From: Alphaproteobacteria bacterium | GTDB lineage: Bacteria; Pseudomonadota; Alphaproteobacteria; Micropepsales; Micropepsaceae | Reading direction: 5' to 3' | DNA length: 64,000 nt | Assembly: GCA_015654635.1 (NCBI GenBank) | Contig: JAATGP010000069.1 | Span: 1-64,000 of the forward strand | Part shown: positions 36,558 through 57,805 of the stretch, piece by piece | Layout: each line of letters opens with the position of its first letter | Position numbering within the stretch: position 1 is the first letter of the stretch | Position numbers and translations under genes: made by a program | The notes under the pieces: model-generated | Told to the model about the DNA's origin: nothing | What the model saw: only the letters and a program-made list of their open reading frames with translations | The model's database searches: none

Positions 36558-37763
36558 CTACCGCTTAATCGCCAAGACCGCGTTGTGGCCGCCGAAGGCG
36601 AAGGAGTTGGAGATCGCGACCTTCACCTTCGCGTCCCGTGCTGTGTTGGGCACGTAGTCGAGGTCGCAGGCCGGATCGGGTTCCTGATAATTGGCCGTAG
36701 GCGGAATAAAGCCGCCTTGCATCGCCACCAGTGTGGCCGCCAATTCCAGCGCGCCGGCCCCGCCCAAAGCGTGGCCATGCATGGATTTGGTGGAAGAGAC
36801 GGGAATCTTTTTTGCGGCCTCGCCGAACACGGCATGAATGGCTTTGGTCTCGGTGGCATCATTGGCATAGGTGCCGGTGCCGTGGGCATTGATGTAATCG
36901 ACATCGCCCGGATTGAGCCCGGCATCGTCGAGGCAAGCCTGGATTGCCGCGCCCGCTCCGCTGACCGAAGGCAGCACAATATCGGCAGCGTCCGAACTCA
37001 TGCCGAAGCCGATGATCTCACCCAGAATCTCGGCGCCGCGCGCCTGGGCCCGTTCCAAGGTTTCGAGCACGAAAATACCGGCACCTTCCGCCAGCACCAT
37101 GCCGGCGCGGCCTTTGGAGAAGGGGCGGCAGGTGTCGGGCGCCATCACCCGCAAGGCTTCCCAGGCTTTGAAGCTGCCATAGCAGAATATCGCTTCCGTC
37201 CCGCCGGTCACCGCCGCCTCGACCATGCCCGAGCGCACCATCTGATAAGCAAGGCCGATGGCGTGATTGGAGGAGGCGCAAGCGCTCGCCACGGTAAAGG
37301 ACGGCCCGGTGATGCCGTGTTCCATGGTGATATGGCTCATGGCGGCGGAGATCATCAGCTTGGGAACGGTCAAGGGGTGGGCTCGGCGCGCCCCTTCGGC
37401 ATAGATGCGATGAAAACTCTCATCCAGGGTCTGCATACCGCCGACACCGGCGCCGATAATGGTGGCGGTCTTGACCCCCAACCCGTCGCGAAAGGCAAGG
37501 CCGCTTTGGGCCACGGCTTGGCGCGATGCCAGAACGGCCAGCTGCGCACAACGGTCCATCAGCCCCAGCTGCTTATCCGTGAAATGGGCCGCGGGATCGT
37601 AATTTTTGACCTCGGCGCCGATCTTGATGAGGAGGCCGTCATGGGGCACCGATTGTATCGGCCCAATACCACTTGCGCCCTTCGCCAAGCTTTCGCGCAT
37701 CTCATCAGCATTGTTGCCGAGCGGCGAGACAATCCCCATGCCCGTGATGACGACGCGATTCAT
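36558..37763 (-). CDS. beta-ketoacyl-ACP synthase II-type (FabF/NodE-like)
   Basis: MNRVVITGMGIVSPLGNNADE, active site ASACASSNHAIG, NAHGTGTYANDATE, STKSMHGHALGGAGA. Confidence 0.92.
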   Translation of the reverse strand: MNRVVITGMGIVSPLGNNADEMRESLAKGASGIGPIQSVPHDGLLIKIGAEVKNYDPAAHFTDKQLGLMDRCAQLAVLASRQAVAQSGLAFRDGLGVKTATIIGAGVGGMQTLDESFHRIYAEGARRAHPLTVPKLMISAAMSHITMEHGITGPSFTVASACASSNHAIGLAYQMVRSGMVEAAVTGGTEAIFCYGSFKAWEALRVMAPDTCRPFSKGRAGMVLAEGAGIFVLETLERAQARGAEILGEIIGFGMSSDAADIVLPSVSGAGAAIQACLDDAGLNPGDVDYINAHGTGTYANDATETKAIHAVFGEAAKKIPVSSTKSMHGHALGGAGALELAATLVAMQGGFIPPTANYQEPDPACDLDYVPNTARDAKVKVAISNSFAFGGHNAVLAIKR

Positions 37764-37776
37764 GCGGCTATGTCTT

Positions 37777-38055
37777 TCAAGGCGAGTCAGGCCGTGGCGG
37801 GTGCTGCTCAGCGACCAGCTTGTTAACGGCCACAACGATCTCGCCCACGGATTTGAACGAGATCCCGGCGGTGTCCTGATCGCTGGGCGAATAGGGCACT
37901 TGAATATCGAATTTCTCTTCGATGGCGAAGACGAGTTCGACCACGTCGATGGACTGCAGGTCGAGGTCGGTCAGCAGGACGTCCGCCGTCAAGGCCGAGG
38001 GCTCCACCTTGGCTTGCTTGGCGACAATCTCGAAAATGTCCCTTTCGTCGATCAT
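37777..38055 (-). CDS. acyl carrier protein (dedicated paralogue)
   Basis: 92 aa, LLTDLDLQSIDVVELVFAIEEKFDIQVP (phosphopantetheine Ser in DLxS); next to KAS. Confidence 0.88.
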   Translation of the reverse strand: MIDERDIFEIVAKQAKVEPSALTADVLLTDLDLQSIDVVELVFAIEEKFDIQVPYSPSDQDTAGISFKSVGEIVVAVNKLVAEQHPPRPDSP

Positions 38056-38221
38056 GAGCTGGCGTCCCCGGCGGTGGGGCTGCGCGCAGGCAGCCCGAAA
38101 GGCGTTTTGGTTCTAACGGCCTCATTCTTAATGGGAAAACCCCATCCGAACCAAGCCCCAATGGGGGCTGGCTGGCGGATTTGCTGGGCATGAACCTTCA
38201 CCCGGCCGCGCTTTGCGCCGG

Positions 38222-39469
38222 TTAAGGCGCTTCCTGGGTGATTCGGAACATTTCTTCCTGCAATCGGCGGGCATGTTTACGGGAGTCAAAGTCCCGTTCG
38301 ATGCGCGCTCGTGCCGCAGCGCCGTGGCGCTCGCGCAGTGCCGAATCGCGGAAATAGGCCAGGCACCCCTCTGCCAGCCCCTCGATGTCCGGGGGATTGC
38401 CGCTGTAAAGCCGCCCTTCGGTTCCGTCCGCCACCATTTCGGCGATGCCGCCCATGGCAAAAGCGAGGATGGCTTTGCCCATCGCCATGGCTTCCATCAC
38501 GGCGCGCGGCAGCGGGTCTTCATAGATGCTGGGGACCACGGCAACATCGAAATCGGCGACATAGGCTCTGGGATCGGCACGAAAACCGATGAACTGAACG
38601 AAACCTCTCAGGCCCAGCGCCTCCGCCAGGGTCTGGCACTCCGCCCGGTGGTCGGGGTGCATATCCTGCGGTGTGTCGCCGAGCACGATAAAGCGGCAAC
38701 GCGAGCGCTCTTCTTCGCTCAGCTTGCTATGGACGATCTTGGCGGCGCGGACCATTTCGATATAGCCCTTGCGCGGCACGATGCGGCCATGGCTGCCGAA
38801 GATCACGGTGTCCGCAGAGCACTTCAGTTCGCGCCGCAACGCGGGTTTGACGCCGCGCCCATCGAATTCCTCGATATCGAGTGCGGTCTGGATGGCACGC
38901 ACCTTGTCCCGGCAATGATCGAATTGCGGCTCACAGGGCTTGGAAACACAAATGATCAGCTTCACATATTTGCCCGCAGCCAGGCGCCGATGCAGTCCGC
39001 GGATGGCGGGCGCCACGGAGGGGTAGAGCACATGCCAGATGGCGGGAACGCCGGTTACGGCTGCCAAGGCTCCGCCCAGAAATCCAGCCGCGGTGCCATT
39101 GCAGAAGATGAGATCGTATTTCTCGCGTCTTATGCGCCGCCACAGCCGCACAAAGCCAGCCGTTGCCCGCCCGATATTGCCCGCCAGACGCGCCAATTTG
39201 AGGGGCAGGGGCGCGGCAAAATCCTCGCGCTCCATCGGCCGCGACAAAGGCTCGAAGGGATGCTCGATCAGGCCCGCCTCATGGAACAGCACTTCGGCGG
39301 CACCGGCTGCGATCAGCCGCTTGCTGACGATGCCTTCGCGCGGGATCAAGATGGTGCGGTGAACCAGCGTGGGATCGAGGAATTTGGTGATGTAAAGAAT
39401 GGTCCGCCCCGGGCCGCCATTGCGCGAGGTGTCGTTGATGAACAGAACGCGCAAAGGCTTGGATGGCAT
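38222..39469 (-). CDS. glycosyltransferase family 4
   Basis: RVLFINDTSRNGGPGRTILYI, GRIVPRKGYIEMVRA, VVPSIYEDPLPRAVMEAMAMGKAILAFAMGGIAEMV. Confidence 0.88.
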   Translation of the reverse strand: MPSKPLRVLFINDTSRNGGPGRTILYITKFLDPTLVHRTILIPREGIVSKRLIAAGAAEVLFHEAGLIEHPFEPLSRPMEREDFAAPLPLKLARLAGNIGRATAGFVRLWRRIRREKYDLIFCNGTAAGFLGGALAAVTGVPAIWHVLYPSVAPAIRGLHRRLAAGKYVKLIICVSKPCEPQFDHCRDKVRAIQTALDIEEFDGRGVKPALRRELKCSADTVIFGSHGRIVPRKGYIEMVRAAKIVHSKLSEEERSRCRFIVLGDTPQDMHPDHRAECQTLAEALGLRGFVQFIGFRADPRAYVADFDVAVVPSIYEDPLPRAVMEAMAMGKAILAFAMGGIAEMVADGTEGRLYSGNPPDIEGLAEGCLAYFRDSALRERHGAAARARIERDFDSRKHARRLQEEMFRITQEAP

Positions 39470-39501
39470 AGCGGGATCACGCTGGTTGAATATGGCAAGC
39501 G

Positions 39502-40614
39502 CTAGAGCGCTGCAGGAGCGGGCTCGATCAGGGCGCTATAAACGAGCCCGTAGCGTTTGCACATAGTGTCGATATCGAAGCGGCTTTCCACCCAAGTGCG
39601 GGCGGCATGGCCATAGCGTTCGGCAAGATCACGGCGCGCCCCGGCTTGGCGAAGCGCGGCCGCCCAGCTCTCGGTCGTATCGTCCCGTACCAGCCAGCCG
39701 GTCTTTTGATCCTGCACCACTTCGGGCATGCCGCCACCGGCAAAGCCCAGCGTCGGCCTCGCCATCGCCGCACCTTCCAGCACCGCGAGAGGCAGGCCCT
39801 CGGCGCGGGTGGTGTTGAGAAGCGCATCACAGCCAGCAATCGCCGCCCGCGGATCGGACAAATGACCGAGAAAATGCACGCGGGACTCCAGCCCATGGCG
39901 GCGCACCAGCGCCTCCAGCATGCTGCGTTCGCCGCCGTCGCCGACGATGTTCAGATGCACATCTTGGGTCCTTGCCATCGCCGCAATGGCGATTGGCAGC
40001 CGCTTGACCGGGTTCAGGCGCCCCACTGCCGCGAAAGTGAAGGGGCCGCTTTCAGGCGGCGGTACAGGCGCAAAGCGCGCCATGTCGATGCCGTTGAGAA
40101 CGACCTCAATTTTTTCCGCCGCCTCTGGCGCCACGCGCATCACGAAGTCTGCAACATAGCGGCTGACGGCCGCGATGCGGCTGGTGTGTCGCAGCGCCCA
40201 GTGACGATAGAGCCCGCAACTGGGATCGCGGTAATGGCGGGTGCCATGTTCGGTGCGCAGCACCGGCAGCCCCAGGCGCAATCCGGTTCGCACCGCCAAG
40301 AGGTGTGAGCCATAGGTATGGGCATGTAGAAGACTGGCCTTCTCTTCCTGTGCCACCCGCGCCAGCCAAGCAATGTCCCAAGGCCCTAGACTGCGTGTCA
40401 GCGTGGCGAGCGGATTTTCCCGCACCGGCCCCCTATCGCGCAGCGCCAAACCCGCTTCGACAAATAACGCCCGCAGCTTCGGGTTCGGCGTCATCACCGC
40501 CACCGCATGCTCTGCCCCGGAAAGCGCGGGGCGGCTGGCGAGATTGACCAGGAATTGCTCCGCGCCGCCCACCGCCCCCGCCACAACAACGTGCAAAACC
40601 TTGGGCCGCGACAT
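39502..40614 (-). CDS. glycosyltransferase family 4
   Basis: KVLHVVVAGAVGGAEQFLVNLA, VGRLNPVKRLPIAIAAMA, TTRAEGLPLAVLEGAAMARPTLGFAGGGMPEVV; start MSRPK at 40614. Confidence 0.88.
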   Translation of the reverse strand: MSRPKVLHVVVAGAVGGAEQFLVNLASRPALSGAEHAVAVMTPNPKLRALFVEAGLALRDRGPVRENPLATLTRSLGPWDIAWLARVAQEEKASLLHAHTYGSHLLAVRTGLRLGLPVLRTEHGTRHYRDPSCGLYRHWALRHTSRIAAVSRYVADFVMRVAPEAAEKIEVVLNGIDMARFAPVPPPESGPFTFAAVGRLNPVKRLPIAIAAMARTQDVHLNIVGDGGERSMLEALVRRHGLESRVHFLGHLSDPRAAIAGCDALLNTTRAEGLPLAVLEGAAMARPTLGFAGGGMPEVVQDQKTGWLVRDDTTESWAAALRQAGARRDLAERYGHAARTWVESRFDIDTMCKRYGLVYSALIEPAPAAL

Positions 40615-41594
40615 CACTTTCCCAAGCGCCGTTTTTCCCAAGCCAGGGCGTGGTCAACGATGGCATCGATATCGTTCCATTTGGGCTGCCAGTCGATCAA
40701 CTGATGCAGCAGATCGGTCGAGGCGACGGAAACCGCCGGGTCTCCGGGGCGCCGCGGGCTGAAGCGGACAGGAAATTCTCGTCCTGCCGCGCGCTCGACC
40801 GCGCCCAACACCTCAAGCACCGAAAAGCCGCGCCCATAGCCGCAATTGACGATCTGGCTTTTTTTCGTCTCGCGCAGATGGTCCAACAGCAACAGATGCG
40901 CCTCGACCAGATCCGAGACATGGATGTAGTCGCGCACGCCGGTGCCATCGGGGGTCTCGAAATCGCTGCCGAAGACCTCGATCGCGGGCCGCAGACCCAG
41001 GGCGGTTTCGCAGGCGGCCTTGATCAGGTGCGAGGCTTTGGCGGTCGACTGGCCGCAGCGTCCGCTGGGATCGGCACCGGCCACATTAAAGTAACGCAGC
41101 GCGGCATAGTGAAAATCGTGCGCCCGCGCCGTATCGGCCAGCATCATCTCGGTCATCAGCTTGGAGGCGCCATAAGGCGACATCGGATTGGTCAGGGCAT
41201 CTTCGCGAATGGGAACGGTTTTGGGATTGCCGTAGACCGAGGCGGTTGACGAAAACAGGAAGGTTTTGACGCCGCCCCGCACCGCCGCCGCGATCAGGGT
41301 GCGCGATTTGCCGGTGTTATTGCCATAATACGCCAGGGGATCGGTGACACTCTCTGGCACCACGCTGGAAGCGGCAAAGTGAATGATGGTGTCGACCGCC
41401 TGCTCCCGCAAGGTGCGGTCGAGCAGTCTGCCGTCGCCGATATCGCCGCGCACCAGCGTCACATCATCGGGAATCGCCCAGTCGAAGCCGGTGGAGAGGT
41501 TGTCGAGCACCACGGCGCGCACGCCCCGGTCGCGCAAGGCCCAGACCAAGTGGCAACCGATATAGCCGCACCCTCCCGTCACCAATACCGTCAT
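40614..41594 (-). CDS. galE: UDP-glucose 4-epimerase
   Basis: MTVLVTGGCGYIGCHLVWALRDRG, SPYGASKLMTEMML, RDYIHVSDLVEAHLLLL; TGATG overlap with the downstream glycosyltransferase. Confidence 0.93.
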   Translation of the reverse strand: MTVLVTGGCGYIGCHLVWALRDRGVRAVVLDNLSTGFDWAIPDDVTLVRGDIGDGRLLDRTLREQAVDTIIHFAASSVVPESVTDPLAYYGNNTGKSRTLIAAAVRGGVKTFLFSSTASVYGNPKTVPIREDALTNPMSPYGASKLMTEMMLADTARAHDFHYAALRYFNVAGADPSGRCGQSTAKASHLIKAACETALGLRPAIEVFGSDFETPDGTGVRDYIHVSDLVEAHLLLLDHLRETKKSQIVNCGYGRGFSVLEVLGAVERAAGREFPVRFSPRRPGDPAVSVASTDLLHQLIDWQPKWNDIDAIVDHALAWEKRRLGK

Positions 41595-42057: not shown

Positions 42058-43005
42058 ATGAGCATGTCCGCTGGTTCTGACGGGTCCAAGATTTATCTTT
42101 GTGTTTCCATTGATTGTGAGTGCGATAAGGGGCCGGGTTGGAAGACCAGAAAGCCGCTGTCCTTTGCTGCCATCACCACCGGCATAGCCGAGCGCCTGCA
42201 GCCCTTGTTCCGCCGCCATGGCGCCAAGCCCACCTATCTGTTGTCGCCGGAAGTGATCCGCGATCCCGCTTCGGTTGAAGCGCTGACAGCCATCGCGTCC
42301 GAATGCGAACTCGGCACCCATCTGCATGGCGAATTTGCCGAGCCCGGCGCCTTCGAGCCGGAGGTAACGTCCGTCTTCCAATGCCATTACGACCGCGCCA
42401 CCGAGCAGGAAAAGCTGCGCGGTCTGACGGCGCTTTTCGCCGATGCCTTCCTGACCAAGCCGCGCTCCTTCCGGGCGGGCCGTTTCGGCATCGGCCGCCA
42501 TTCGCTCGGTATCCTGGCCGATCTTGGCTATACGGTGGATTCCAGCGTCACACCGTTCAAGGACTGGGCTCAGGCCGGCGCGCCGGAAGCCTCTTTTCGC
42601 CAAGCCCCGACCCAGCCTTATTGGCCGGTCTTGGAAAAACCCGCCCAAATCGCCTCTGAGCCTGGCTCGCTCTTTGAGGTGCCCGTTACCATCCGCCCGG
42701 GGGCGCTGTCCTGGCTGCCGTTGATCGGGCGGCATTTCGAGCCGCGCTGGCTGCGGCCCACCAAAGGCAGCCTTGGCGGGCTCATTTCCGTGGCCAAAGA
42801 CGAAATCGCCGCCGCAAGCGGCCGCCCGATCCTGCTCAATTGCATGTTCCATAATGTGGAAATCATGCCGGGCCTCAGCCCTTATGCCCAAAGCCAAGCG
42901 GAGGCCGACGCCATACTGAACCGGCTCGACGGCCTGCTGGCCTTTGCCGCCCGCCAGGGCATTGCCACTATCGGATTGGGTGACGTCCCCGGCCTGTTCT
43001 GTTAA
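42058..43005 (+). CDS. polysaccharide deacetylase-like protein
   Basis: IYLCVSIDCECDKGPGW, ELGTHLHGEFAEPGAFEP, RAGRFGIGRHSLGILADLGYTVDSSVTPFKDW. Confidence 0.7.
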   Translation: MSMSAGSDGSKIYLCVSIDCECDKGPGWKTRKPLSFAAITTGIAERLQPLFRRHGAKPTYLLSPEVIRDPASVEALTAIASECELGTHLHGEFAEPGAFEPEVTSVFQCHYDRATEQEKLRGLTALFADAFLTKPRSFRAGRFGIGRHSLGILADLGYTVDSSVTPFKDWAQAGAPEASFRQAPTQPYWPVLEKPAQIASEPGSLFEVPVTIRPGALSWLPLIGRHFEPRWLRPTKGSLGGLISVAKDEIAAASGRPILLNCMFHNVEIMPGLSPYAQSQAEADAILNRLDGLLAFAARQGIATIGLGDVPGLFC

Positions 43006-43130
43006 AGGGTGCGTACCGTAATCGTGGCTCTTCGTTAACAGCCTGACAGGTCTTGGTTTTAGGCCTGTACAGCAGTTCCAATGGCCTTGTATCGTCGCCC
43101 AAAGGCGGCCATGCATGGCTGGATGAGGTC

Positions 43131-43847
43131 ATGTTATCCGTACAGCATTTGGTGAAGTCGCTCGGGGGACGGCGCATCATCGAGGACGTGACCTTAGAGG
43201 TCGCGCGCGGTGAAATCGTCGGCCTATTGGGGCGCAACGGGGCGGGCAAAAGCACCAGCTTCAAGATGCTGACCGGGTTGATCGTGCCCGATTCGGGGCA
43301 TATCACCCTTGATGGCAATGACATTACCAAGCTGCCGTTTTACGAGCGGGCCCGGCGCGGGATCAGCTATCTGCCGCAGGATACCTTCGTTCCCCGCGCC
43401 CTTTCGGTCGAAACCAACCTGATGATGGTGCTGGAGGTGCGCGAGCCCTCGGCCAAAAAACGCAAAGCCATCGCTGAAGGCCTGCTCGAGCAATTCCACA
43501 TCGCCGATCTGCGCAAATTGCCGGTCGGCACCCTCTCGGGCGGCCAGCGGCGGCGCTGCGAGATCGCCATCACACTGGCTTGCGAGCCCAGTTTTGCCTT
43601 GCTCGACGAGCCTTTCGCCCGGGTCGATCCCCAGGCCATCGAGGAGATTGCGGGCCTTGTGCGGGCTCTGGCCGAACGCAACATCGGGGTCTTGATCACG
43701 GATCATAATGCCCGCGAACTCTTGGGCATGGTGGCGCGCTCCTATGTGATCGAGAGCGGCCGGGTGCTGGCCCATGGCACGCCGGAGGAGCTGCTCGACA
43801 ATGCCGATGTCCGCCGGGTCTATCTCGGCGAGGAGTTCCGCATATGA
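43131..43847 (+). CDS. LptB-like ABC transporter ATP-binding protein
   Basis: GLLGRNGAGKSTSFKMLTGLIVPDSGHITLDGNDITKLPFYERARRGISYLPQD, LSGGQRRRCEIAITLA; LptB-type signature. Confidence 0.88.
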   Translation: MLSVQHLVKSLGGRRIIEDVTLEVARGEIVGLLGRNGAGKSTSFKMLTGLIVPDSGHITLDGNDITKLPFYERARRGISYLPQDTFVPRALSVETNLMMVLEVREPSAKKRKAIAEGLLEQFHIADLRKLPVGTLSGGQRRRCEIAITLACEPSFALLDEPFARVDPQAIEEIAGLVRALAERNIGVLITDHNARELLGMVARSYVIESGRVLAHGTPEELLDNADVRRVYLGEEFRI

Positions 43848-45094
43848 GGCGCCCCGGCATTTCCGGTGTTCTGGCGCGTGCCGCCTCCTGGTTTGTGCGC
43901 TTGCTGGCCGGTCCTTTGGCCCAGCTTTTTGCCCAGCGTTTTTTCAGCGGCGTGGCCCTCTTGGTCTTCATCGTCATGGTGCTGTTCGAGGCGGTATTCC
44001 TGGCCGAGCGCTTCCCCATGGTATTCCGCGCCGTGTTCGAGCATCACGCCGATCCCAGCGCCTCGCTGATCCTTTTGCTATGGAACAGCACTCAGGTGGT
44101 GGATCTGGCGTTGGCGATTGCGGTGCTCGTCGCCGTCTATTGGACCACTTTGCGCCTTCGAGAAAACCGTGAGCTGCTGGTTTTGGTCGCGGCCGGAACG
44201 GGGCCGTATCAGTTGATCAACCTCGTCGTCATGGTGGCGGTGCTGGCTTTGATTTCCTCGATCACTGTTTCGGGCATTTTGGATCCCGCTGCCCGGTTTG
44301 CCGAGCGCCAGCTGCTTTTCAATGCCGAGTTTCAGGCTCTGCGCACCGGAATCAACACCGGCCAGTTCTACGAATTCTCTGGCCGCGTCGCCTTTGCCCC
44401 GGCGCGCAAAGCCGGGGTGGCAAAACGCGCCGCCGCCTATCAGACGCGCGGCCTCTTTGTTTATGAGGATGTGGCGCCGGGCAAATTCCGGGTTGTGACG
44501 GCCGATCATGCCAGCCTCGAAGGTCCGGATGCGATTGGCCGCGTTGTCCTAAAGCTTGGCGGTTTTACCTCTCAAACCTTCACCAGCGCCGGGCGTGGTG
44601 GCTGCACCAATTGCACGCCGGACGACAAATCGAATTCGCGCATGGCGCTGCTCTCGGGCGACGTCACCCAGGCGATGATGGCCGATCAGCTTCTCACCTT
44701 CGAGCCGCGCGGCAGCAGCGCCGACGAGCTGTCGATCTTCGACCAGTTCGCCGAGACGGGATACTCGACCGATCCGCGCCACCGCGAAGATATGCGCCTT
44801 TTGGGCGAGCGGCTGGCGCGCTGTTTTCTCTGCCTGCTGGCGCCGTTCGTGGCGCTCGCCTGTGTCTGTCTGACCAATCGGAGGACCAATTACTTCGCCC
44901 TGCCGCTTGCCTGCATGGCGCTGATGAGTCTCAACGTCGCCAGCGTCTGGCTGATCCGCGTCATTGTTCCACTGGACCCCTGGGGTGCGGTGCGGGCTCC
45001 CGCCATCGTCACCGGGCTGCTGGCAGTGTTGCTTCTGGCCGAAATTTACCGCGAGCAAGGCAAGCTCGCCCAACCGCAATTGGGGCGCCCATGA
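43844..45094 (+). CDS. LptF/LptG family permease (divergent)
   Basis: N- and C-terminal TM bundles, RENRELLVLVAAGTGPYQL coupling region; immediately follows lptB-like gene (ATGA overlap). Confidence 0.75.
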   Translation: MRRPGISGVLARAASWFVRLLAGPLAQLFAQRFFSGVALLVFIVMVLFEAVFLAERFPMVFRAVFEHHADPSASLILLLWNSTQVVDLALAIAVLVAVYWTTLRLRENRELLVLVAAGTGPYQLINLVVMVAVLALISSITVSGILDPAARFAERQLLFNAEFQALRTGINTGQFYEFSGRVAFAPARKAGVAKRAAAYQTRGLFVYEDVAPGKFRVVTADHASLEGPDAIGRVVLKLGGFTSQTFTSAGRGGCTNCTPDDKSNSRMALLSGDVTQAMMADQLLTFEPRGSSADELSIFDQFAETGYSTDPRHREDMRLLGERLARCFLCLLAPFVALACVCLTNRRTNYFALPLACMALMSLNVASVWLIRVIVPLDPWGAVRAPAIVTGLLAVLLLAEIYREQGKLAQPQLGRP

Positions 45095-46287: not shown

Positions 46288-46291
46288 GGGC

Positions 46292-48101: not shown

Positions 48102-49378
48102 GCGGCCGCCTCGTCTTTACCAACCAGCGCCCGGTAATAACCCAGAATCCGCCCCATGCAATCATCCCAACTGAAGGTCAGCGCCCGCGCCCTCGCGGCT
48201 TCGCTCAGCCGTGCCCGCAAACCCGCATTCTCCGCTATTTCGCCGAGGCGCATCGCAAACATATCACTATTGCGCGGCTCTACCAGAAATCCCGTCTGCC
48301 CCTGCACCACCAGCGAGCGGCTTCCCGTAGCATCGGCACAGACGCAAGGCAGGCCCGAGGCCATCGCTTCTAACGTAACATTTCCAAATGTTTCAGTTTC
48401 GCTCGGAAACAGGAAGACATCCGCCGCCGCATAAGCCTCGGCCAGGTCTTTGCCCTTCAAAAAGCCGGTGAAGATGGCCGTGGGCAAATCGCGCTCCATC
48501 TGGGCCCGGTCGGGTCCGTCGCCGACAATGACGGCGCGATGTGCAATGCCGCGCGCTTCCAGCCGCCGCAATGTCGCCACCACGGTGTCGAGTTCTTTCT
48601 CCCGCACCAGCCGCGAGACGAAGGTGACGACGAATTCATCTGGCGCGATGGCGTGGTGCGCGCGGAAATTGCTGCGGCGCTGCGCCGGGCTGAACAAATC
48701 GGTATCGACGCCGCGCGGCCACAGTTTGAAATTGTCCCGCATGCCATCGGCCAGAAGCGCATCCACCATGGATTGCGACGGCACATAGACTTCGCGGCAT
48801 CTGCCATAAGCATATTTGAGATAGGCCTTGAGCAGCCCCTCGACCCAGCGCGAATAGGGATAATGCTTGAGATAAGTTTCAAAGCGCGTGTGGCAAGAGG
48901 CGACCATGGGAATTCCCATGGCACTGGCGGTTTTCAGCACGCTATAGCCCAGCGGATCGGGCGCCAGCGCGAGATGAATCACATCGGGCGCAAAGGCTTT
49001 CAGCCGCGCGCGATTGGCTTTGGTGAGGCCGAAGGCAATGCGGTATTCGGGCCGTCCCGGCGCCGCGATCGAAGGCACCGCCACCAGCGTTCCGGCATGC
49101 TCAAGGGCAGGGGTCTTGCCGACCGGCGCGAAGACGACAACCTCCACGCCTTGCTTTTCCAAATACGCCACCAACCGGTTCAGCGTCAGCGCGACGCCAT
49201 CCCGGATGTAATTGTAAGAACTCGCTATGATTGCGATGCGCAGCGGAGCATTGCGGTCCGGTGAACCGTTTGTCCTGCCTGCGGCGCGTGCTTGATCATG
49301 GGATGGGTCTGTCACGAACACGCTGCGTATGCTTTTCTGCTTGCCCCTGTGGCGGACTTTACAAGAGGTCGCAGCCAT
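48098..49378 (-). CDS. glycosyltransferase family 4 (PimB/MgtA-like); start uncertain (49378 or about 49315)
   Basis: RIAIIASSYNYIRDGVALTLNRLVAYLEKQGVEVVVFAP, FVSRLVREKELDTVVATLRRLE, FPSETETFGNVTLEAMASGLPCVCADATGSRSLV. Confidence 0.9.
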   Translation of the reverse strand: MAATSCKVRHRGKQKSIRSVFVTDPSHDQARAAGRTNGSPDRNAPLRIAIIASSYNYIRDGVALTLNRLVAYLEKQGVEVVVFAPVGKTPALEHAGTLVAVPSIAAPGRPEYRIAFGLTKANRARLKAFAPDVIHLALAPDPLGYSVLKTASAMGIPMVASCHTRFETYLKHYPYSRWVEGLLKAYLKYAYGRCREVYVPSQSMVDALLADGMRDNFKLWPRGVDTDLFSPAQRRSNFRAHHAIAPDEFVVTFVSRLVREKELDTVVATLRRLEARGIAHRAVIVGDGPDRAQMERDLPTAIFTGFLKGKDLAEAYAAADVFLFPSETETFGNVTLEAMASGLPCVCADATGSRSLVVQGQTGFLVEPRNSDMFAMRLGEIAENAGLRARLSEAARARALTFSWDDCMGRILGYYRALVGKDEAAA

Positions 49379-49428
49379 GGCTTTGTCAACCTTCCGCCGT
49401 AAAACCCTTTCGCATTAAGCGCATAACC

Positions 49429-50181
49429 ATGGTCAGCAACAGCATTCTCATCACCGGCGCCTCCAGCGGTATTGGGGCTGCTTTGGCGCGAGTTTATGCC
49501 GGGCAAGGCAGGCGCCTTTTTCTCTGGGGCCGCGATAACGCCCGCCTGGAGACGGTCGCCGCGGCGTGCCGCGCGCGGGGCGCATACGTAGAAACACGAT
49601 GTTTCGATATCGTGGATTTTTCCGCGCTGATCCAAGAACTCGACGGGCTCGATAGCAAAAATCCGCTCGATCTTGTCTTCTTCAATGCGGGGCTTGGCGG
49701 CAGTCTGCCGCAGGATCGCGCGGGTCAGGATCCGCACACTGCCGAGAAAATGGCGGGTGTGAACTTCACCGCCCCCGCCATTGGCGCCAATCTTATGGCC
49801 GAGCGCATGGCAAAGCGCGGGGCAGGACAAATTGTGCTGGTAGGCTCGGTGGCGGCATCCTTTCCTTTGCCCATGGCACCGCTTTATTCGGGCTCTAAGG
49901 CCGGTCTTGCCATGTTTGCCGAAGCGCTTGGTCTCAGGCTGAAGCGCCATGGCGTCTTTGTTACATTGGTTTCGCCCGGCTTTATCGATACGCCCATGAG
50001 CCAGTCTCTGACCGAGCCGCGGCCCTTTCTCATCACCGCCGACCATGCTGCTGCCATCATTGCGCGCAAAGTGGCGCGTCACGCCCGGCGCGTTGTCATA
50101 CCTTGGCAATTTGCAATGATTCTGGCGGTGTCCAAATGCGTACCGCGCGTTGTGATGCGGGCCGTTTTGGCGGCGTTCTAA
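49429..50181 (+). CDS. short-chain dehydrogenase/reductase
   Basis: ILITGASSGIGAALARVYAGQGRRLFLWGRD, LYSGSKAGLAMFAEALGLRLKRHGVFVTLVSPGFIDTPM. Confidence 0.9.
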   Translation: MVSNSILITGASSGIGAALARVYAGQGRRLFLWGRDNARLETVAAACRARGAYVETRCFDIVDFSALIQELDGLDSKNPLDLVFFNAGLGGSLPQDRAGQDPHTAEKMAGVNFTAPAIGANLMAERMAKRGAGQIVLVGSVAASFPLPMAPLYSGSKAGLAMFAEALGLRLKRHGVFVTLVSPGFIDTPMSQSLTEPRPFLITADHAAAIIARKVARHARRVVIPWQFAMILAVSKCVPRVVMRAVLAAF

Positions 50182-50206
50182 GAGCGCAGACGCGGAGCAT
50201 GGCCGC

Positions 50207-51220
50207 TTGCGGCTCTGTGGTATAGGTTTTGCGAAAATGGCGGAGAGGCCGGTCCTGAATAATCTGCACACGTATCTTAAGGAGTGGGGGCTGAGGCTGA
50301 AGGCCCCGGCACAAGACTTCTACGCGCGCTGGGGCAGGGTTTTGCGTCCCGCGCTGCGCTTTGGCGTGCCGTTGCTGCTGCTGGCGCTGATCGGCTACGG
50401 CCTCACTCATGTGGGCTGGGCGAATATCTATCAGGCCCGGCCGACCGCGCTCAGCTTTTATCTTGTGGTTTTGGTGCCGTTCTTCGTGCAGCCGATTGCC
50501 GATCTTTGCATCTATCGCAATCTCTTAAGGGCTGGCGGCGCACTGCCGCTCACCATCTTCCTGCGCAAGCGCTACATGAACAACATCATGCTGGATTATT
50601 CCGGCGAGGTGTATTTCTTCCTCTGGGCCCGCAAGAATCTGAAGATCAAGGATTCGACGCTGTTGCACGCCGTGAAGGATTCCAGCGTGCTCTCGGCCTC
50701 GGCCGGGCTCATTGTGCTGTGGGTAATGCTGCTTGCGCTTGTGGTTGCCGGCATCGTGAAAATTCCCGTGGTTTCGCGCGGCACCTGGTGGGTGGTGGCG
50801 GCTGGCTCCTTGCCGCTGGTCTTCGCGGCGGCGCTGTTTCTTGGACAAAAGCAACTCAGCCAGACCAGCCGCAAGGACATGGTCATCACCTTCGTCCTTC
50901 ATTTTGCCCGCGCCCTCACGGTGATGGGGCTCGAATTTCTGACTTGGCTGTTTTCGGGCGCTCTGCCCAGCACCGGCGATTGCCTCAAATTCGTCGCCTT
51001 GCGCTTGTTGGTGACGCGCCTGCCGCTGGTGCCCAATAAGGAGCTGGTGTTTGTCGGTGTCGGTGTGGCGGCGGCGGGGCTGATGCATATCTCCGCTCCC
51101 AAGGTGGCGGCCGTTCTGGTGCTGATCACAGTGATCGACCGCTGTCAGGATTTTCTCATCGTGGGTTTGCCGTGGCTGCTTGAACAACTGCCTCTGCGCC
51201 GCAGCGCAGCCAAGCTTTGA
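50207..51220 (+). CDS. polytopic membrane protein (flippase-like/LPG synthase TM-region-like), uncharacterised
   Basis: About 8 hydrophobic segments; no motif definitively recognised. Start may be 50237. Confidence 0.6.
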   Translation: MRLCGIGFAKMAERPVLNNLHTYLKEWGLRLKAPAQDFYARWGRVLRPALRFGVPLLLLALIGYGLTHVGWANIYQARPTALSFYLVVLVPFFVQPIADLCIYRNLLRAGGALPLTIFLRKRYMNNIMLDYSGEVYFFLWARKNLKIKDSTLLHAVKDSSVLSASAGLIVLWVMLLALVVAGIVKIPVVSRGTWWVVAAGSLPLVFAAALFLGQKQLSQTSRKDMVITFVLHFARALTVMGLEFLTWLFSGALPSTGDCLKFVALRLLVTRLPLVPNKELVFVGVGVAAAGLMHISAPKVAAVLVLITVIDRCQDFLIVGLPWLLEQLPLRRSAAKL

Positions 51221-51226
51221 GGGCCC

Positions 51227-53119
51227 ATGCGGATCGCAGCAACCCTTTCTACTTGGCGCCGTTCGCCGCTGTTTTGGATCCTTCTTGGGGCCGGGCTGCT
51301 CCGCATCGCTGGTCTCTTCTGGGGTTTGCCGGGCGCGGATGGCTGGGATGATGATGGGGTGGCGCCGCGCAATTTCCTCGTTGGCTTGGCGCAGACTTAC
51401 ACGCCCGGCGCGCACTTCACTTATCCGCCGTTCCATATGTTCATTTTGGGCCTCCTCAGCCTGCCGGGAATCGTCATCGCCATTGCCTCGGCGCCTTCCC
51501 TGCATCCGCAGGATGTGATCGGCACGATCACGCACGTCCCCTATATGACGTTCTTTGCCGTGGTGGCCCGGCTGGTCAGTATTGCCTTCAGCTTCGGCAC
51601 CATCGTCATCGTCGGTAAAATGGCGGAGCTGCTGGCCGGGCGCAGGGCGGGGCTTTTTGCCGCTGCAGCGTTGGCGCTCAATGCGGCGCTCACCTATTAC
51701 GGCGTCGCTACCAATCTCGACGGGCCTGCGATTTTTTGGGCGGTGCTGGCGGTCTATTTTTTTATGCGCGTAATGGCGCTGAAGGAGTTGCCCGCGATTC
51801 GGTGGGCCCTCTTAAGTGCCGCCGCCGCCGTGGCCACCAAGGATCAGGCCTATGCAGTCTTTGCGCTGGCTTTCCCTGCGGGTCTGGCGCTGTGGTTTGT
51901 CACCGATGCTTGGGCCAGAGCCCATGCAAGCCGCCTTCTCATCCCGATTCTTCTGTGGAGTGTTGCCGCTCTGTTGGCGGTGCTGCTGGTCGATGGCGCC
52001 ATTACCAACCCGCATGGCTTCGCCGATCGTCTCGCTTTCCTTACCGGCCCCGCCAGCAAGGATTACGCCCAATACGAAGCGGGCCCGGCGGGGTGGGGGG
52101 CGTTGCTGGTCGATATGCTGAATTTCTCCAGCCGCTATTACCCGGGTCTGTTCTTTCTCTTGGCGCTGGCGGGCATGGCCCGGCTCGCATGCCGTTTTCA
52201 TTTGCAGTCTGGTGCCAATCCAGCGGGATTCTTGCCCCTTCTGGCGGCACTATCCTTCACCCTTGCCTTCAATTTTGTGGCGCTTCGCAGCGAGCCTCGC
52301 TTCTTCCTGCCGCAGTCGGTGTTTCTTGCCGTTTATATCGGTATTGCCGTGGACGGGGTGGAGCATGTGGCGAAAGGCTGGCGCCGCACGGCACTAAGGG
52401 CGCTGTGCGTGGTTGCGGTCTTTCTGGCTTTTACGCGCTGTGCGGGCATTAGCGCCGCCTTTCTGGCCGATCCGCGCTACGATGCAGAGCGTTGGATGGC
52501 GGCGCATATGCGCCCTGGCGATAAGGTCGAAATCTACGGTCTGAACACCTATTTGCCGCGTTTTCCGGCAGGGCTCGCGCTCACGCGCGTCGGCCCCAAA
52601 CCGCTCAAGGCGCGCAATCCGCTTCCTGGCGTCATCGAACTTCGCGAGCCCTATGGCGCGCTCTTTCGCCGCCAGCCGCGCTTCCTTGTGGTCCCGGCTG
52701 CCTGGGTCGCCGTTTACCGCGATGATGTTTCCCATCTGGCGGGGCGGGGGCGAATTGTGCAAAAGGTTCTTGCAGCTTCCCAACTTGACGTGGACGCGCG
52801 GAACTACTTTGGTGCACTCTTCGCCGGGCGGCTTCCCTATCGCTTGGCCCATAAATCCGCTTATGCGGAGCCCCTGGGGCCTAGTGTTAATGAATATGAG
52901 AGTCTAACGCAGACCATGTTGGTGTTTGAGCGAGAGCCAAAGAAGGAATTTGAGCCAATTGTCACAGTTCCCAAACCCGAAGCCAAAAGGCAGGCAAACT
53001 CCCCACACGGGAACTTTCGCCATTTGGCCGGATGGGGAGCAGACGTGCTATGGCTGCCGGGACTTGCTTTCGTTTCCAGGGGTTATCATATTGACCACAC
53101 TTGGGGTTGGGACGCGTAA
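51227..53119 (+). CDS. GT39/ArnT-like polytopic glycosyltransferase
   Basis: LLGAGLLRIAGLFWGLPGADGWDDDG, many TM segments, periplasmic C-terminal domain. Confidence 0.7.
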   Translation: MRIAATLSTWRRSPLFWILLGAGLLRIAGLFWGLPGADGWDDDGVAPRNFLVGLAQTYTPGAHFTYPPFHMFILGLLSLPGIVIAIASAPSLHPQDVIGTITHVPYMTFFAVVARLVSIAFSFGTIVIVGKMAELLAGRRAGLFAAAALALNAALTYYGVATNLDGPAIFWAVLAVYFFMRVMALKELPAIRWALLSAAAAVATKDQAYAVFALAFPAGLALWFVTDAWARAHASRLLIPILLWSVAALLAVLLVDGAITNPHGFADRLAFLTGPASKDYAQYEAGPAGWGALLVDMLNFSSRYYPGLFFLLALAGMARLACRFHLQSGANPAGFLPLLAALSFTLAFNFVALRSEPRFFLPQSVFLAVYIGIAVDGVEHVAKGWRRTALRALCVVAVFLAFTRCAGISAAFLADPRYDAERWMAAHMRPGDKVEIYGLNTYLPRFPAGLALTRVGPKPLKARNPLPGVIELREPYGALFRRQPRFLVVPAAWVAVYRDDVSHLAGRGRIVQKVLAASQLDVDARNYFGALFAGRLPYRLAHKSAYAEPLGPSVNEYESLTQTMLVFEREPKKEFEPIVTVPKPEAKRQANSPHGNFRHLAGWGADVLWLPGLAFVSRGYHIDHTWGWDA

Positions 53120-54348
53120 TGGCATCTGATTACTCATTGGCGGGCCATATCGTCCGGCGGGCGCGTTTGGCTGGGGCTGCGGTTTTAGAAAACGGCAATC
53201 CTTTCTTCGCGCCGCTGGATCGCCTGCAGGCCGATGCCATACGTGCTGGCGGTGTTCTCACCAGCTTTGCCAACTACGATTATCTGGGTATTTCCGACCA
53301 CGCCGCGATTCGCGACGCAGCCCATCTGGCGCTGGATCGCGTTGGCGTCGGTGCTCTGGGTTCGCGCCTTGTCGGCGGCGAGCGCTTGATTCATGCCGAT
53401 TTCGAGAATGCGCTGGCGAAATTCGTTGGCACTGGGGCTTGCCTTACTTTGGTGAGCGGCTATCTCACCAACCTCACCACCATTTCGCATCTGCTCGGCA
53501 AGCGCGATCTCGTCATCTATGATGAGCTTAGCCACAACTCCATCGTGGCCGGCGTTGCCTCGTGCAAAGCCACGCCGATGGAATTCCGCCATAACGATAT
53601 GGACCATTTGCGCCACCTGCTCACGGAAGCGCGCGGCAATTATCGCAACTGCCTGATCGTGGTCGAAAGCCTCTACAGCATGGATGGCGACATCGCCAAT
53701 CTGCCGGAGCTTTTGAACCTCAAGGACGAATTCCATTCCTGGCTGCTCGTCGATGAAGCCCATTCGATCGGTGTTTTGGGTGAGACCGGCCGCGGCATCT
53801 GCGAATATTTCAAGGAAGATCCCGAGCGGATCGATCTCATCATCGGCACCTTGTCCAAGACCTTTGTCTCCTGCGGCGGCTTCATCTGCGCCCAGAAGCC
53901 GGTGCTCGATTGGATGAAGTTCCTCTTGCCGGGCTTTGTTTATAGTGTGGGCCTGCCGCCGGTGATTGCCGCGGCGGCCAATGCCGCTTTGCAGCTCATC
54001 ATCAAAGAGCCTGAGCGTGTCGGCAAGCTGCAAGCCAATTCCAAGCATTTCCTCGAAAAGGCCAAGGCTGCGGGCCTGTCGACCGGGCCTGCCGAAGGCT
54101 ATGCCGTCGTGCCGGTGCATTTCTCCGACATGCGTACCACCATGGCCGCCTCCGACCATCTCATGAAGAACGGCGTTTACGCGCCGCCGATCGTGCAGAT
54201 GGGGGTGCCCAAGGGTCTGCCGCGCATCCGCTTTTTCATCTCGGCCCGCCACAGCTTCGACGAGATCGACCGCACGGTGGAACTCCTGCGCAGCTTCTCG
54301 GCGACGCTCGCCAAAGCGCCGGTCGAAAGCCAAGCCGCGCTGGCCTAA
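53119..54348 (+). CDS. alpha-oxoamine synthase family aminotransferase, serine palmitoyltransferase-like
   Basis: FANYDYLGISDHAAIRDAA, GVGALGSRLVGGERLIHADFENALAKF, LLVDEAHSIGVLGETGRGI, IIGTLSKTFVSCGGFI (PLP Lys); TAATG overlap with the upstream gene. Confidence 0.82.
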   Translation: MASDYSLAGHIVRRARLAGAAVLENGNPFFAPLDRLQADAIRAGGVLTSFANYDYLGISDHAAIRDAAHLALDRVGVGALGSRLVGGERLIHADFENALAKFVGTGACLTLVSGYLTNLTTISHLLGKRDLVIYDELSHNSIVAGVASCKATPMEFRHNDMDHLRHLLTEARGNYRNCLIVVESLYSMDGDIANLPELLNLKDEFHSWLLVDEAHSIGVLGETGRGICEYFKEDPERIDLIIGTLSKTFVSCGGFICAQKPVLDWMKFLLPGFVYSVGLPPVIAAAANAALQLIIKEPERVGKLQANSKHFLEKAKAAGLSTGPAEGYAVVPVHFSDMRTTMAASDHLMKNGVYAPPIVQMGVPKGLPRIRFFISARHSFDEIDRTVELLRSFSATLAKAPVESQAALA

Positions 54349-54351
54349 AGG

Positions 54352-55512
54352 CTAGCCCAGCGGCTTTTCGAAGATGCGGTAGCGTTTGGAGGCGGTGGCG
54401 CCGAATTGGGCGATGACGGCCTTGATGCGCTCGTTCGAATCCAGCACCCAGGAGAGTTCGCCGGTTTCCACCTTGCGGGCGAAATCGCTTCTCTGGCAGG
54501 TCTGAACCATCATCAACGCGGTGATGGCACCGACCGGTGAACTCCAATATTTGCGCCGCACCCCCATCAGGGCCAGCCGCCCCGAGCGCACGCCGCTGAC
54601 CTTCAGCCGCCAGAGGAATTTGACAATACCAAAGGGAAACAGCTTGCCGTTGAGGTCGCGGGCGCATTCGTTGATGTTGGGCAGCATCATGGCAACGCCA
54701 ATGGGCTCGCCATCGTACTCGCCGATTACCAGCGCCTCGGGCTTTAGGAAAACCTTGAACAGCGAGGCGATTTCTTCGACTTCGGCCTCGGTCATGGGCA
54801 CAAAGCCCCAATTCTCCGCCCAGGCGTCGTTGACGATATCGCGGATCAGCGCCACTTCGCCGGGGAAGTTCTTTTTGTCCATCCGCGCCGGGCGGAAGAC
54901 GAAGCTATGCTTTTCCTGCATCTTGCCGATCAGGCGCTGGACGTTCTCGGCAAAGGGCTTTTTCACCGGATAGGTGTAGGCCAGAAGGTCCTGAGTCTTG
55001 GCGTATCCCTGCGCCGTAATCAGATCCTGGTAATAGGGCAGGTGATGGCCCATCAGCACGTTGGGCGGGCTGCCGAAGCCGTCGACCAACAGCCCCGGCT
55101 CATCCCACATATTGAAGCTGACCGGCCCCAGGACTCGCGTCATGCCCTCAGACTTGAGCCAAGCTTCGGCGGTGGCGAGGAGGGCGGCGAACACCGCCGG
55201 GTCATTAATGCCTTCCAGAAAACCGAAATGGCCTGTGGCGTCGTGGTGCTGGGCCAGATGCAAGGCATCGATCTGTGCAGTGATGCGGCCTGCCGGCACG
55301 CCGTCTTTCAGCGCCAGCCAGAACTTGCCCTTGGCGTGCTTGAAAAAGGCATTGTGCTTGGTGTCGAAGTGAAACTGCCGCTCCAGCAGCAGCGGCGCCA
55401 CAAAATTTGGATCATCACGGTAGATCGTCTGCGGCAAGGCATGAAATGCACGCCATTGCGCCTTGCTCTCGACTTCGACGATGGTGATTTCAGCGGGTCT
55501 GGACTGCGACAC
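54352..55512 (-). CDS. GNAT-fold protein, candidate bacterial ceramide synthase (bCerS-like)
   Basis: VEVESKAQWRAFHALPQTIYRDDPNFVAPLLLERQFHFDTKHNAFFKHAKGKFWLALKDGVPAGRITAQID, VLGPVSFNMWDEPGLLVDGF; convergent with the SPT-like gene. GTG start at 55512. Confidence 0.6.
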   Translation of the reverse strand: MSQSRPAEITIVEVESKAQWRAFHALPQTIYRDDPNFVAPLLLERQFHFDTKHNAFFKHAKGKFWLALKDGVPAGRITAQIDALHLAQHHDATGHFGFLEGINDPAVFAALLATAEAWLKSEGMTRVLGPVSFNMWDEPGLLVDGFGSPPNVLMGHHLPYYQDLITAQGYAKTQDLLAYTYPVKKPFAENVQRLIGKMQEKHSFVFRPARMDKKNFPGEVALIRDIVNDAWAENWGFVPMTEAEVEEIASLFKVFLKPEALVIGEYDGEPIGVAMMLPNINECARDLNGKLFPFGIVKFLWRLKVSGVRSGRLALMGVRRKYWSSPVGAITALMMVQTCQRSDFARKVETGELSWVLDSNERIKAVIAQFGATASKRYRIFEKPLG

Positions 55513-55709
55513 GGCTTTCGCCCCCAAAGGTTTGGGGCTGCTTAGGCAAAGACCGGCGCCAGTGCAATCTGCTTTTCCGTAACCTTCCCCACCGAGAGAG
55601 AAACGAAAGCCGCCCGGGTGGCCGTTCAGAGATATTTTTGTCAGGACGCGATGGGATCGTTTAGCCTGACCGTGCCGGGCGCGATCACAGCGCGAGGAAG
55701 GACATTTCA

Positions 55710-56882
55710 GTGCTTGATTTTCTTGGTGGCCGCCTCGACACCGCTGTCTTGACCGAGACTGCGCTTCGCCGTGCGGGGCGGACCCGTTACTCGGACACAT
55801 CGTTTCACGAGCCCTTGATCAAACTTCTCACTGCCTATGAAGAGGAAGCCGAGCTAAGCCTGTTCGGACGTTTCGCGGCGCGTTTCGACATCTTGCGCTG
55901 CCTCACCAATTTGCTTCAACTCGACGCCGCTGAGGAAGCCGATCCCAGCATCACGCGGCGTCCGATCACAGCGCCGCTTTTCATTACCGGCCTGCCGCGC
56001 TCGAGCACAACCTTTCTGCACACGCTACTGGCCCAGGATCCGGCCACGGCCGTGCCGCTGTGCTGGCAACTCATCTATCCCTTCCCGCCGCGCCGTCCAT
56101 GGTTCGGGAAGGATCGCCGCCGCGATATCGTCGAAGGACAATTTCGTATTTTCAAACTGTTGTCGCCGGGGATATCCGATCTGCATCCCTTGAGCGCCGA
56201 TGCGCCGCAGGAATGCACCGACATCACCGCCCAGGTCTTCCAGAGTCTGCGCTTCGACAGCACCCACCACATCCCTTCCTATCAAGCCTGGCTTGACGAT
56301 CATGGGCAGGATGACGCCTTCCGCTTCCACCGCCGCTTTCTGCAAAATCTGGATGCGCAGGCGCCTGGCCGAAGCTGGGTGCTGAAATCGCCGGATCATA
56401 TTTTTTGTTTGGATGCCATCCAAACCACCTATCCCGATGCGCGCATCGTCTTTTTGCACCGCGATCCGCTCAGCGTGGTGGCGTCTTGTGCCAAGCTGAC
56501 AGAAGCTTTGCGCAAACCCTTTAGCCGCGCCGTAGACCCGCTGGTGGTGGGCAAAAACGTTGCCGACCGTCTGGTGGCCTCGGCGCAGCGCATGGCAGCG
56601 GCCGATGGCGCCGAGAATATCCTGCATCTGTATTTCCGCGATGTCATCGCCGATCCCATGGCGGCGGTGGCGAAAGTGTATGCCCATTGCGGCCGCGACC
56701 TGTCGCCTGCGGCCAAGCTCAAAATGCTGAGCTGGCTTGCTCGCTGCCCGCGCACGCGCACCCGCCACAGCTATAATCTGGCCGAATTCGGGCTCAAGGC
56801 GGGGGTGCTGCGCGAACGCTTCTCCGGCTACATGACTCGCTTCGCTGTGCCCATGGAGCGCCACGCCGGGGAATTGGTGTGA
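55710..56882 (+). CDS. sulfotransferase family protein
   Basis: PAPS-binding-type loop FITGLPRSSTTFLHTLL; RIVFLHRDPLSVVASCAKL. Confidence 0.85.
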   Translation: MLDFLGGRLDTAVLTETALRRAGRTRYSDTSFHEPLIKLLTAYEEEAELSLFGRFAARFDILRCLTNLLQLDAAEEADPSITRRPITAPLFITGLPRSSTTFLHTLLAQDPATAVPLCWQLIYPFPPRRPWFGKDRRRDIVEGQFRIFKLLSPGISDLHPLSADAPQECTDITAQVFQSLRFDSTHHIPSYQAWLDDHGQDDAFRFHRRFLQNLDAQAPGRSWVLKSPDHIFCLDAIQTTYPDARIVFLHRDPLSVVASCAKLTEALRKPFSRAVDPLVVGKNVADRLVASAQRMAAADGAENILHLYFRDVIADPMAAVAKVYAHCGRDLSPAAKLKMLSWLARCPRTRTRHSYNLAEFGLKAGVLRERFSGYMTRFAVPMERHAGELV

Positions 56883-57805
56883 AGCGGGCGCTGATCTTCG
56901 CCGTTGGTTGTGTGCTCCTCATCGCCCTTGCCTGGTTCGCGGGGGCGGCCGCCATTGCCACAGCCCTGGTCCATTTGGGTGTCGGCGGGCTCATCGTTGC
57001 AGGTCTTATCCATCTTCCCATTGTCGCTTTGATGGGCGTGGCCTTCTGGTTCGCGGGCGGTAAAACTGCTCCGCTCACAGATTATATTGCGGCCCGCGTG
57101 GTGCGCGATGCGGCTGCCGATCTTCTGCCCTTCTCGCAATTTGGCGGCTTTGCCGCGGGCTTGCGTATCTTGCAGCTGCGCAGCGGCACCGTCCTGGCAA
57201 ATGCGCTCACCATTTTTCTCGATCTGGTGATGGAGTTTGCTGCCAAAGCCCCGCACACTGCCACGGGCCTCGTCCTGTTGATCATCTTCGTATCCGGCTC
57301 CGCCCTGGCGACGCCGCTGGCGCTTCTGCTTGCCGCTTTGGTCCTCGCCAGCGCCGCGGCCGTTCTGTTCCGCCGCCGCTTGGGTCAAGCCTGTGCCGCC
57401 GCGGCGCGCCGGATTCTGTCGCGCTGGGCAGAGGCCGACAGCAGCGGCCTCATCGCACAGGGTTTTGAGGCCGCCCGCTTGCTGCCGTCATTCGCTTTGC
57501 ATGTGCTGTGCTGGTTTTTGGGCTCGCTGGAGACCTATGTGGTCTTCGCGCTTTTGCACCATCCGGTGAGCTTGGCTGAAGCGGTGGTGATCGACAGCCT
57601 CGCCAACACGCTGAAGACTTTCGCCTTCCTCATTCCGGCGGCTGCCGGGGTGCAAGAGGGGGCTTATGTGCTCGTTTGCGCCGCGCTCGGCATCGGGGCG
57701 GCGCCCGCGATGGCCTTTTCGCTGGCCCGGCGCGCCCGCGAGCTTCTCATCGGCCTGCCGGCGTTGGGCCTTTGGAACGTCTTGGAGACGCGGCGGAGCC
57801 GTTAG
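56879..57805 (+). CDS. polytopic membrane protein, LPG synthase TM-region/flippase-like
   Basis: SQFGGFAAGLRILQLRSGTVLANALTIFLDLVMEF..., IPAAAGVQEGAYVLVCAALGIG; ATGA-type overlap with the sulfotransferase gene. Confidence 0.7.
   Translation: MKRALIFAVGCVLLIALAWFAGAAAIATALVHLGVGGLIVAGLIHLPIVALMGVAFWFAGGKTAPLTDYIAARVVRDAAADLLPFSQFGGFAAGLRILQLRSGTVLANALTIFLDLVMEFAAKAPHTATGLVLLIIFVSGSALATPLALLLAALVLASAAAVLFRRRLGQACAAAARRILSRWAEADSSGLIAQGFEAARLLPSFALHVLCWFLGSLETYVVFALLHHPVSLAEAVVIDSLANTLKTFAFLIPAAAGVQEGAYVLVCAALGIGAAPAMAFSLARRARELLIGLPALGLWNVLETRRSR

Follow-up and report, generated by a model that had tools for sequence, protein, structure and literature searches.

A conserved Rhizomicrobium gene cluster proposed to make, glycosylate and export a ceramide-like lipid

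The DNA analysed here (the window, 64,000 nucleotides) is part of contig C33 of G000, a 3.9 Mb metagenome-assembled genome (MAG) of a Rhizomicrobium-type alphaproteobacterium from soil, and contains a cluster of about 21 kb (36558 to 57805) in which lipid-synthesis genes stand next to glycosyltransferase genes and an Lpt-type transporter. We propose that this locus probably directs the synthesis, glycosylation and export of a ceramide-like glycolipid, with all of the chemistry read from homology, synteny, and the presence or absence of genes across relatives. The same cluster is found in the cultured type strain Rhizomicrobium electricum DSM 21034 and in one Rhizomicrobium MAG, its closest named relatives.

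The core of the system consists of LptB, LptF, and LptG, a DUF4833 protein, two lipid-type GT4 glycosyltransferases, a short-chain dehydrogenase/reductase (SDR), a membrane protein (MP1), a GT-C transferase, an alpha-oxoamine synthase (AOS), and a GNAT-fold protein, and is present in about 25 of the 60 genomes of the window's group, in two arrangements. Type A (11 genomes including G000, AOS identity 70-96%) keeps, where contigs reach, the order GT4a-GT4b-[42058 gene]-LptB-LptF-LptG-DUF4833-GT4c-GT4d-SDR-MP1-GT-C-AOS-GNAT, and type B (about 14 genomes, AOS about 40% identical) has the same core rearranged. Since the genes stay together in both types, the grouping pointed out in an initial annotation made from the sequence alone is not due to chance, and its neighbourhood is conserved across relatives. 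The genes of the type A order are as follows:

38222..39469, minus strand: GT4a glycosyltransferase (Pfam, synteny); type A core, also in Acetobacteraceae and some type B genomes
39502..40614, minus strand: GT4b glycosyltransferase (Pfam, synteny)
42058..43005, plus strand: conserved protein with no family match, kept in type A
43131..43847, plus strand: LptB-like ATPase of the private exporter, the genome's second LptB (TIGR04406, 306 bits, cut-off 240)
43844..45094, plus strand: LptF-like permease, 6 predicted transmembrane (TM) segments (PF03739, 88 bits; below the TIGR04407 equivalog cut-off)
45091..46287, plus strand: LptG-like permease (TIGR04408, 94.5 bits, below the cut-off of 240; LptFG tree)
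46292..46894, minus strand: DUF4833, secreted all-beta protein and signature gene (PF16117, 8e-31)
46866..48101, minus strand: GT4c, lipid-type glycosyltransferase of an Sgt1/Sgt2-like pair (best NCBIfam match below cut-off; Caulobacter homology)
48098..49378, minus strand: GT4d, lipid-type glycosyltransferase, start codon uncertain (NCBIfam; Caulobacter homology)
49429..50181, plus strand: classical SDR reductase, proposed CerR replacement (Pfam adh_short; in type A and B clusters)
50237..51220, plus strand: polytopic membrane protein MP1, 6 predicted TM segments, no family match (homologue beside GT4c in Sphingomonas and Caulobacter)
51227..53119, plus strand: GT-C fold membrane glycosyltransferase, ArnT-like, 630 aa (Foldseek, ArnT 5f15, E 8e-8, prob 1.00)
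53119..54348, plus strand: AOS of its own clade, proposed to have serine palmitoyltransferase (SPT) function (profile scores, tree, catalytic residues)
54352..55512, minus strand: GNAT-fold N-acyltransferase, homologue of the bacterial ceramide synthase bCerS (39% identity over 378 aa with the cerS-position gene of OR37)

Lipid synthesis genes

The AOS had initially been called serine palmitoyltransferase-like, a name that its scores and its place in the tree do not bear out. It stays below the cut-off of every curated SPT model (CFB 282.8 bits against 640, BetaP 278.2 against 500, AlphaP 198.7 against 670); positive controls from relatives pass (L033 with 835.6 against 670, L034 with 627 against 500). 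The models for bioF (333.6 against 426), ALAS (235 against 339), and KBL are not reached either, and in the tree the enzyme falls outside the BioF, KBL, and ALAS clades, so that the comparison of SPT with BioF/KBL matches neither side. The AOS enzymes of type A and type B form one clade (bootstrap support 100/100), and the SPT clade (100/99), which includes the Sphingobacterium enzyme 3a2b and a sequence from G093, excludes them. The sister grouping of both clades has a support of only 79/57, with a p-AU of 0.265 for the BioF alternative. The catalytic residues are conserved in the alignment with 3a2b and others (the PLP lysine, the aspartate, the stacking histidine, and the carboxylate-binding arginine), and the matches in the PDB include SPT with 213 bits and cysteate-C-fatty acyltransferase with 144 bits. 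As G000 has a separate ALAS gene (L002, above cut-off) and a BioF-like gene (L003, just below it), those two roles look covered. We propose that this AOS represents a lineage outside the known SPTs with SPT function. AOS enzymes outside the Spt-like clade have been treated as probably not involved in sphingolipid synthesis (PMC11334938), and the window locus is a candidate exception to this view, unless the broader clade B of that paper includes it.

Related AOS genes occur in other settings. In G080, from another family, one is accompanied by DUF4833, a myo-inositol-1-phosphate synthase, a cytidylyltransferase-family protein, LptF/LptG, a GT4, and a CDP-alcohol phosphotransferase (L071:18024-19250, L071:19253-19885, L115:1944-3056, and L072), possibly an inositol-lipid version of the cluster; no GNAT homologue was found in that genome. 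Two genes of the type B branch, L104 (G030) and L105 (G008), have neither LptFG nor GNAT nearby and adjoin an unrelated SDR, which perhaps indicates a different product.

The GNAT-fold protein is, as initially suspected, related to bCerS: it is homologous over its full length (39% identity over 378 aa, E 3e-93) to the gene that takes the cerS position in Caulobacter vibrioides OR37, a reference identified by gene order, as it follows lptF2-lptG2 in the aasR-cerR-acpR-spt region. This homology suggests that the GNAT would N-acylate a long-chain base. Among 100 relatives, GNAT was present in 34 of the 34 genomes with a type A/B AOS or a canonical SPT, against two of the other 66, and the two kinds of synthase never occurred together in one genome. 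A homologue of CerR, an extended SDR, was found in all six SPT genomes compared and in none of 11 with type A/B clusters (E 1e-15). Furthermore, canonical SPT was above cut-off in all ten genomes with GT4c that were checked outside the Rhizomicrobium group (from Acetobacter, Brytella, Acidomonas, Caulobacter, Phenylobacterium, and Sphingomonas; four are Acetobacteraceae) and in none of the three inside it (two of type B, and R. electricum). From these patterns we infer that the AOS and the classical SDR replace SPT and CerR, with the N-acyltransferase being shared with Caulobacter. In Caulobacter-type synthesis, SPT and the ceramide synthase are cytoplasmic and CerR is periplasmic (PMC11087976). 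The SDR of the window has no visible signal sequence and is therefore probably cytoplasmic, contrary to CerR.

A different base would also account for part of these results. The AOS might make another aminolipid base, either a 1-deoxy base from glycine or alanine or a sulfonolipid base from cysteate, which the GNAT would acylate to a sphingolipid-like compound rather than a serine-derived ceramide. AOS family enzymes use several amino acids, this one scores under every SPT cut-off and does not group with the SPT clade, and the cysteate enzyme is among its PDB matches. However, that match is weaker than the one to SPT, the retained ceramide-type glycosyltransferase pair would imply a sugar-accepting hydroxyl such as the C1-OH of serine, and the AOS occupies the place of SPT in the pattern described above, all of which makes such a product unlikely.

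Two further loci carry similar genes. The second bCerS-like GNAT of G000 (L242, G000:C52:30438-31574) is 56% identical to that of the cluster, with no other cluster genes within the 6 kb fetched. In G093 (L243), an AOS of the SPT clade has as its neighbours a bCerS-like GNAT and an SDR that shares 43% identity with the SDR of the window, a possible intermediate arrangement.

Glycosyltransferases and the Lpt-type exporter

For both GT4c and GT4d, the best NCBIfam model is a lipid glycosyltransferase, below cut-off (N-acetylglucosaminyl-PG synthase in the case of GT4c). They are 47-50% and 40-45% identical, respectively, to an adjacent, divergent GT4 pair in Caulobacter genomes, and GT4d is also 43% identical to another GT4 within the Caulobacter sphingolipid cluster. 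Sgt1 and Sgt2 are ceramide glycosyltransferases encoded by adjacent-numbered GT4 genes, with their nearest relatives in Sphingomonadaceae (PMC6445935), and the Caulobacter pair is probably Sgt1/Sgt2. The 630-aa protein had been described as GT39-like. Its matches to PMT models are sub-threshold; the GT-C fold stands, since its structural model (pLDDT 74.5) matches ArnT, ALG9, and OST with prob 1.00, at TM-scores of only 0.4-0.5, ArnT being the best match in the PDB. This model suggests the periplasmic transfer of a sugar from a polyprenyl donor.

LptB and the two permeases with LptF/G domains are encoded in one operon, in which the LptB and LptF frames overlap by 4 nt. They come in addition to the lipopolysaccharide (LPS) set, as had been assumed: at least four LptF/G copies were counted in 17 of 17 cluster or SPT genomes and in none of 20 others, which carry two, and LptB is present twice in eight of eight cluster genomes and once in four of four without the cluster. 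LpxC is retained in the type A genomes searched, so that LPS is additional to the cluster lipid; the idea that the cluster owes its presence to a loss of LPS was rejected, since LpxC and two further LptF/G are kept. The LptBFG set is private to the cluster, as a putative exporter. In the LptFG tree, its permeases form a clade with those of type B and Acetobacteraceae, separate from the LPS LptFG and from the SPT-cluster LptFG of three relatives (the tree does not contain the Caulobacter copies). In Acetobacter oeni, Brytella, and A. garciniae, LptBFG of the window type sits with GT4a-d (L124, L125, and L126) and the SPT locus has other LptFG (L251, L252, and L254), which points to the glycolipid branch as the LptBFG cargo. 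One SPT genome without detected LpxC has only two LptF/G, both adjoining SPT (L079, G070:C1:1318092-1321894).

The last member of the exporter would be DUF4833. Across 385 genomes sampled evenly from the class, only G000 and G080 have a copy above cut-off, and in each it lies next to an AOS of this type. We found no mention of it in the open-access literature.

The glycosyltransferases and the exporter could also be taken for part of a locus for surface polysaccharide or glycolipid, where AOS, SDR, and GNAT would supply an acyl modification and the cargo of the Lpt trio would be a glycoglycerolipid or a variant of LPS. Even though four GT4s, galE, and a GT-C enzyme are present, the best models for GT4c and GT4d are of the glyceroglycolipid synthase type, and Acetobacteraceae have the same glycosyltransferases and LptBFG without AOS or GNAT alongside, this is very improbable given the canonical SPT of all ten GT4c genomes checked outside the Rhizomicrobium group, including the four Acetobacteraceae, and the joint occurrence of AOS, SDR, GNAT, glycosyltransferases, and Lpt genes in both cluster types.

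Proposed pathway and relation to known systems

In the proposed synthesis of a ceramide-like glycolipid, the AOS would condense an amino acid, serine being the most likely one, with an acyl thioester to yield a 3-keto long-chain base. The bCerS-like GNAT would N-acylate this base and the classical SDR would reduce its ketone, in either order. On the cytoplasmic side, the GT4c/GT4d pair, together with GT4a and GT4b, would add sugars; a flippase, perhaps MP1, would then bring the lipid to the periplasmic side, where the ArnT-like GT-C enzyme would attach one more sugar, taken from a polyprenyl donor. Finally, the private LptB2FG would extract the lipid for the outer membrane, with DUF4833 as its candidate periplasmic partner. 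The initial idea of a glycosylated, possibly sulfated sphingolipid being made, decorated, and exported here keeps the bCerS-like GNAT, the Lpt trio, and the GT4 pair in its favour, and loses SPT identity, with sulfation confined to two genomes at most. More tentatively, this may be a second bacterial ceramide-like route, in which a non-SPT AOS and a classical SDR have displaced SPT and CerR while bCerS was kept, with a third LptFG lineage that has its own LptB and DUF4833 and is dedicated to glycosphingolipid export.

Several observations weigh against this proposal. The AOS scores too low for every curated SPT model and is without the SR-x-LNG sequence of SPTs, and the presence/absence counts come from related genomes, which are not independent events. 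The link between the Caulobacter GT4 pair and Sgt1/Sgt2 comes from the published description instead of locus tags, and a simple pattern found no Pho box upstream of the pair. With Pfam and NCBIfam, no LptC, LptA, or LptD partner was found in the locus, to which the search was confined. The model of DUF4833 (pLDDT 85.7) has no significant match in the PDB, also with regard to an LptA/LptC-like jellyroll.

The co-location of lipid synthesis with an Lpt-type transporter had been considered little described. It is not new, since in Caulobacter the sphingolipid region CC_1168-CC_1152 (aasR-cerR-acpR-spt ... lptF2-lptG2-cerS) already has these genes beside a second LptF/G; the LptC2/F2/G2 genes lie inside that cluster, and phosphosphingolipid transport has been proposed for them (PMC11324152). 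What is new is this lineage and its parts, the locus being a real, conserved variant of a known system. Both regions have sphingolipid genes adjoining extra Lpt permeases, a bCerS homologue, and a GT4d homologue. Contrary to the Caulobacter region, the window has an AOS outside the SPT clade, a classical SDR and no CerR homologue, its own LptB, and another LptFG lineage, and adds DUF4833 and the ArnT-like GT-C enzyme, with glyco- rather than phosphoglycerate-type tailoring. GT4c and GT4d are homologous to the adjacent Caulobacter pair, which by its description would be ccna_00792/00793, but, unlike that pair, they run in tandem inside a lipid and export cluster. The Acetobacteraceae clusters L124-L126 share with the window four GT4s, the membrane protein, and the LptFG clade, but have no AOS or GNAT alongside, and their canonical SPT is elsewhere with its own LptFG. 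As in the LPS exporter LptB2FG, LptB is above its equivalog cut-off and the LptF/G Pfam domain is present, whereas the permeases are far below their equivalog cut-offs and in a separate clade, in a genome that keeps the LPS set.

The route of bacterial sphingolipids to the outer membrane has been stated as unknown (PMC11324152), and LptB, LptF, LptG, and DUF4833 constitute compact, conserved export candidates in a cultured strain, R. electricum, whose relatives keep their LPS genes, so that the cargo could be tested without LPS loss. We found nothing on sphingolipids in Rhizomicrobium in the open-access literature. If the AOS makes a long-chain base, alphaproteobacterial sphingolipids would extend to Rhizomicrobium and its relatives, and producers would escape surveys that are restricted to the known SPT clade (as in PMC11334938).

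Accessory genes and the annotation of the window

Every gene of the initial annotation was found where it had been placed. Its list was corrected to KAS II at 36558-37763 and the acyl carrier protein (ACP) at 37777-38055, and it had overlooked the conserved secreted DUF4833 protein (46292-46894, minus strand). The remaining genes of the 21 kb are accessory:

36558..37763, minus strand: KAS II, FabF-like (Pfam ketoacyl-synt; PRK07314 above cut-off)
37777..38055, minus strand: ACP, 92 aa (weak ACP models only)
40614..41594, minus strand: galE, UDP-glucose 4-epimerase (TIGR01179, 404 bits, cut-off 262)
55710..56882, plus strand: sulfotransferase (PF13469, 8e-42; synteny)
56879..57805, plus strand: HpnL/UPF0104-type membrane protein (PF03706; TIGR03476, 176 bits, below the cut-off of 196)

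These genes are patchy. galE adjoins the cluster only in G000, G053, and L117; the sulfotransferase and HpnL genes are restricted to G000 and its nearest relative, G025; and KAS II/ACP, which also occur in genomes that lack the cluster, are present in part of type A, no KAS II being found near the cluster in G053, G020, G026, or type B. For this reason, the system is the core rather than the whole 21 kb, and KAS II with its supposedly dedicated ACP, galE, and the sulfotransferase, initially counted as its parts, are not core by synteny. KAS II/ACP as a dedicated acyl supply was downgraded accordingly, and sulfation was rejected as a general trait: with the sulfotransferase in two close genomes only, a sulfated product would concern those two at most. 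The polysaccharide deacetylase-like label of the gene at 42058-43005 has no Pfam or NCBIfam match behind it. Both of the polytopic membrane proteins initially listed are present, one being the HpnL/UPF0104-type protein and the other MP1, for which a relationship to HpnL was rejected (hhalign probability 0.1%).

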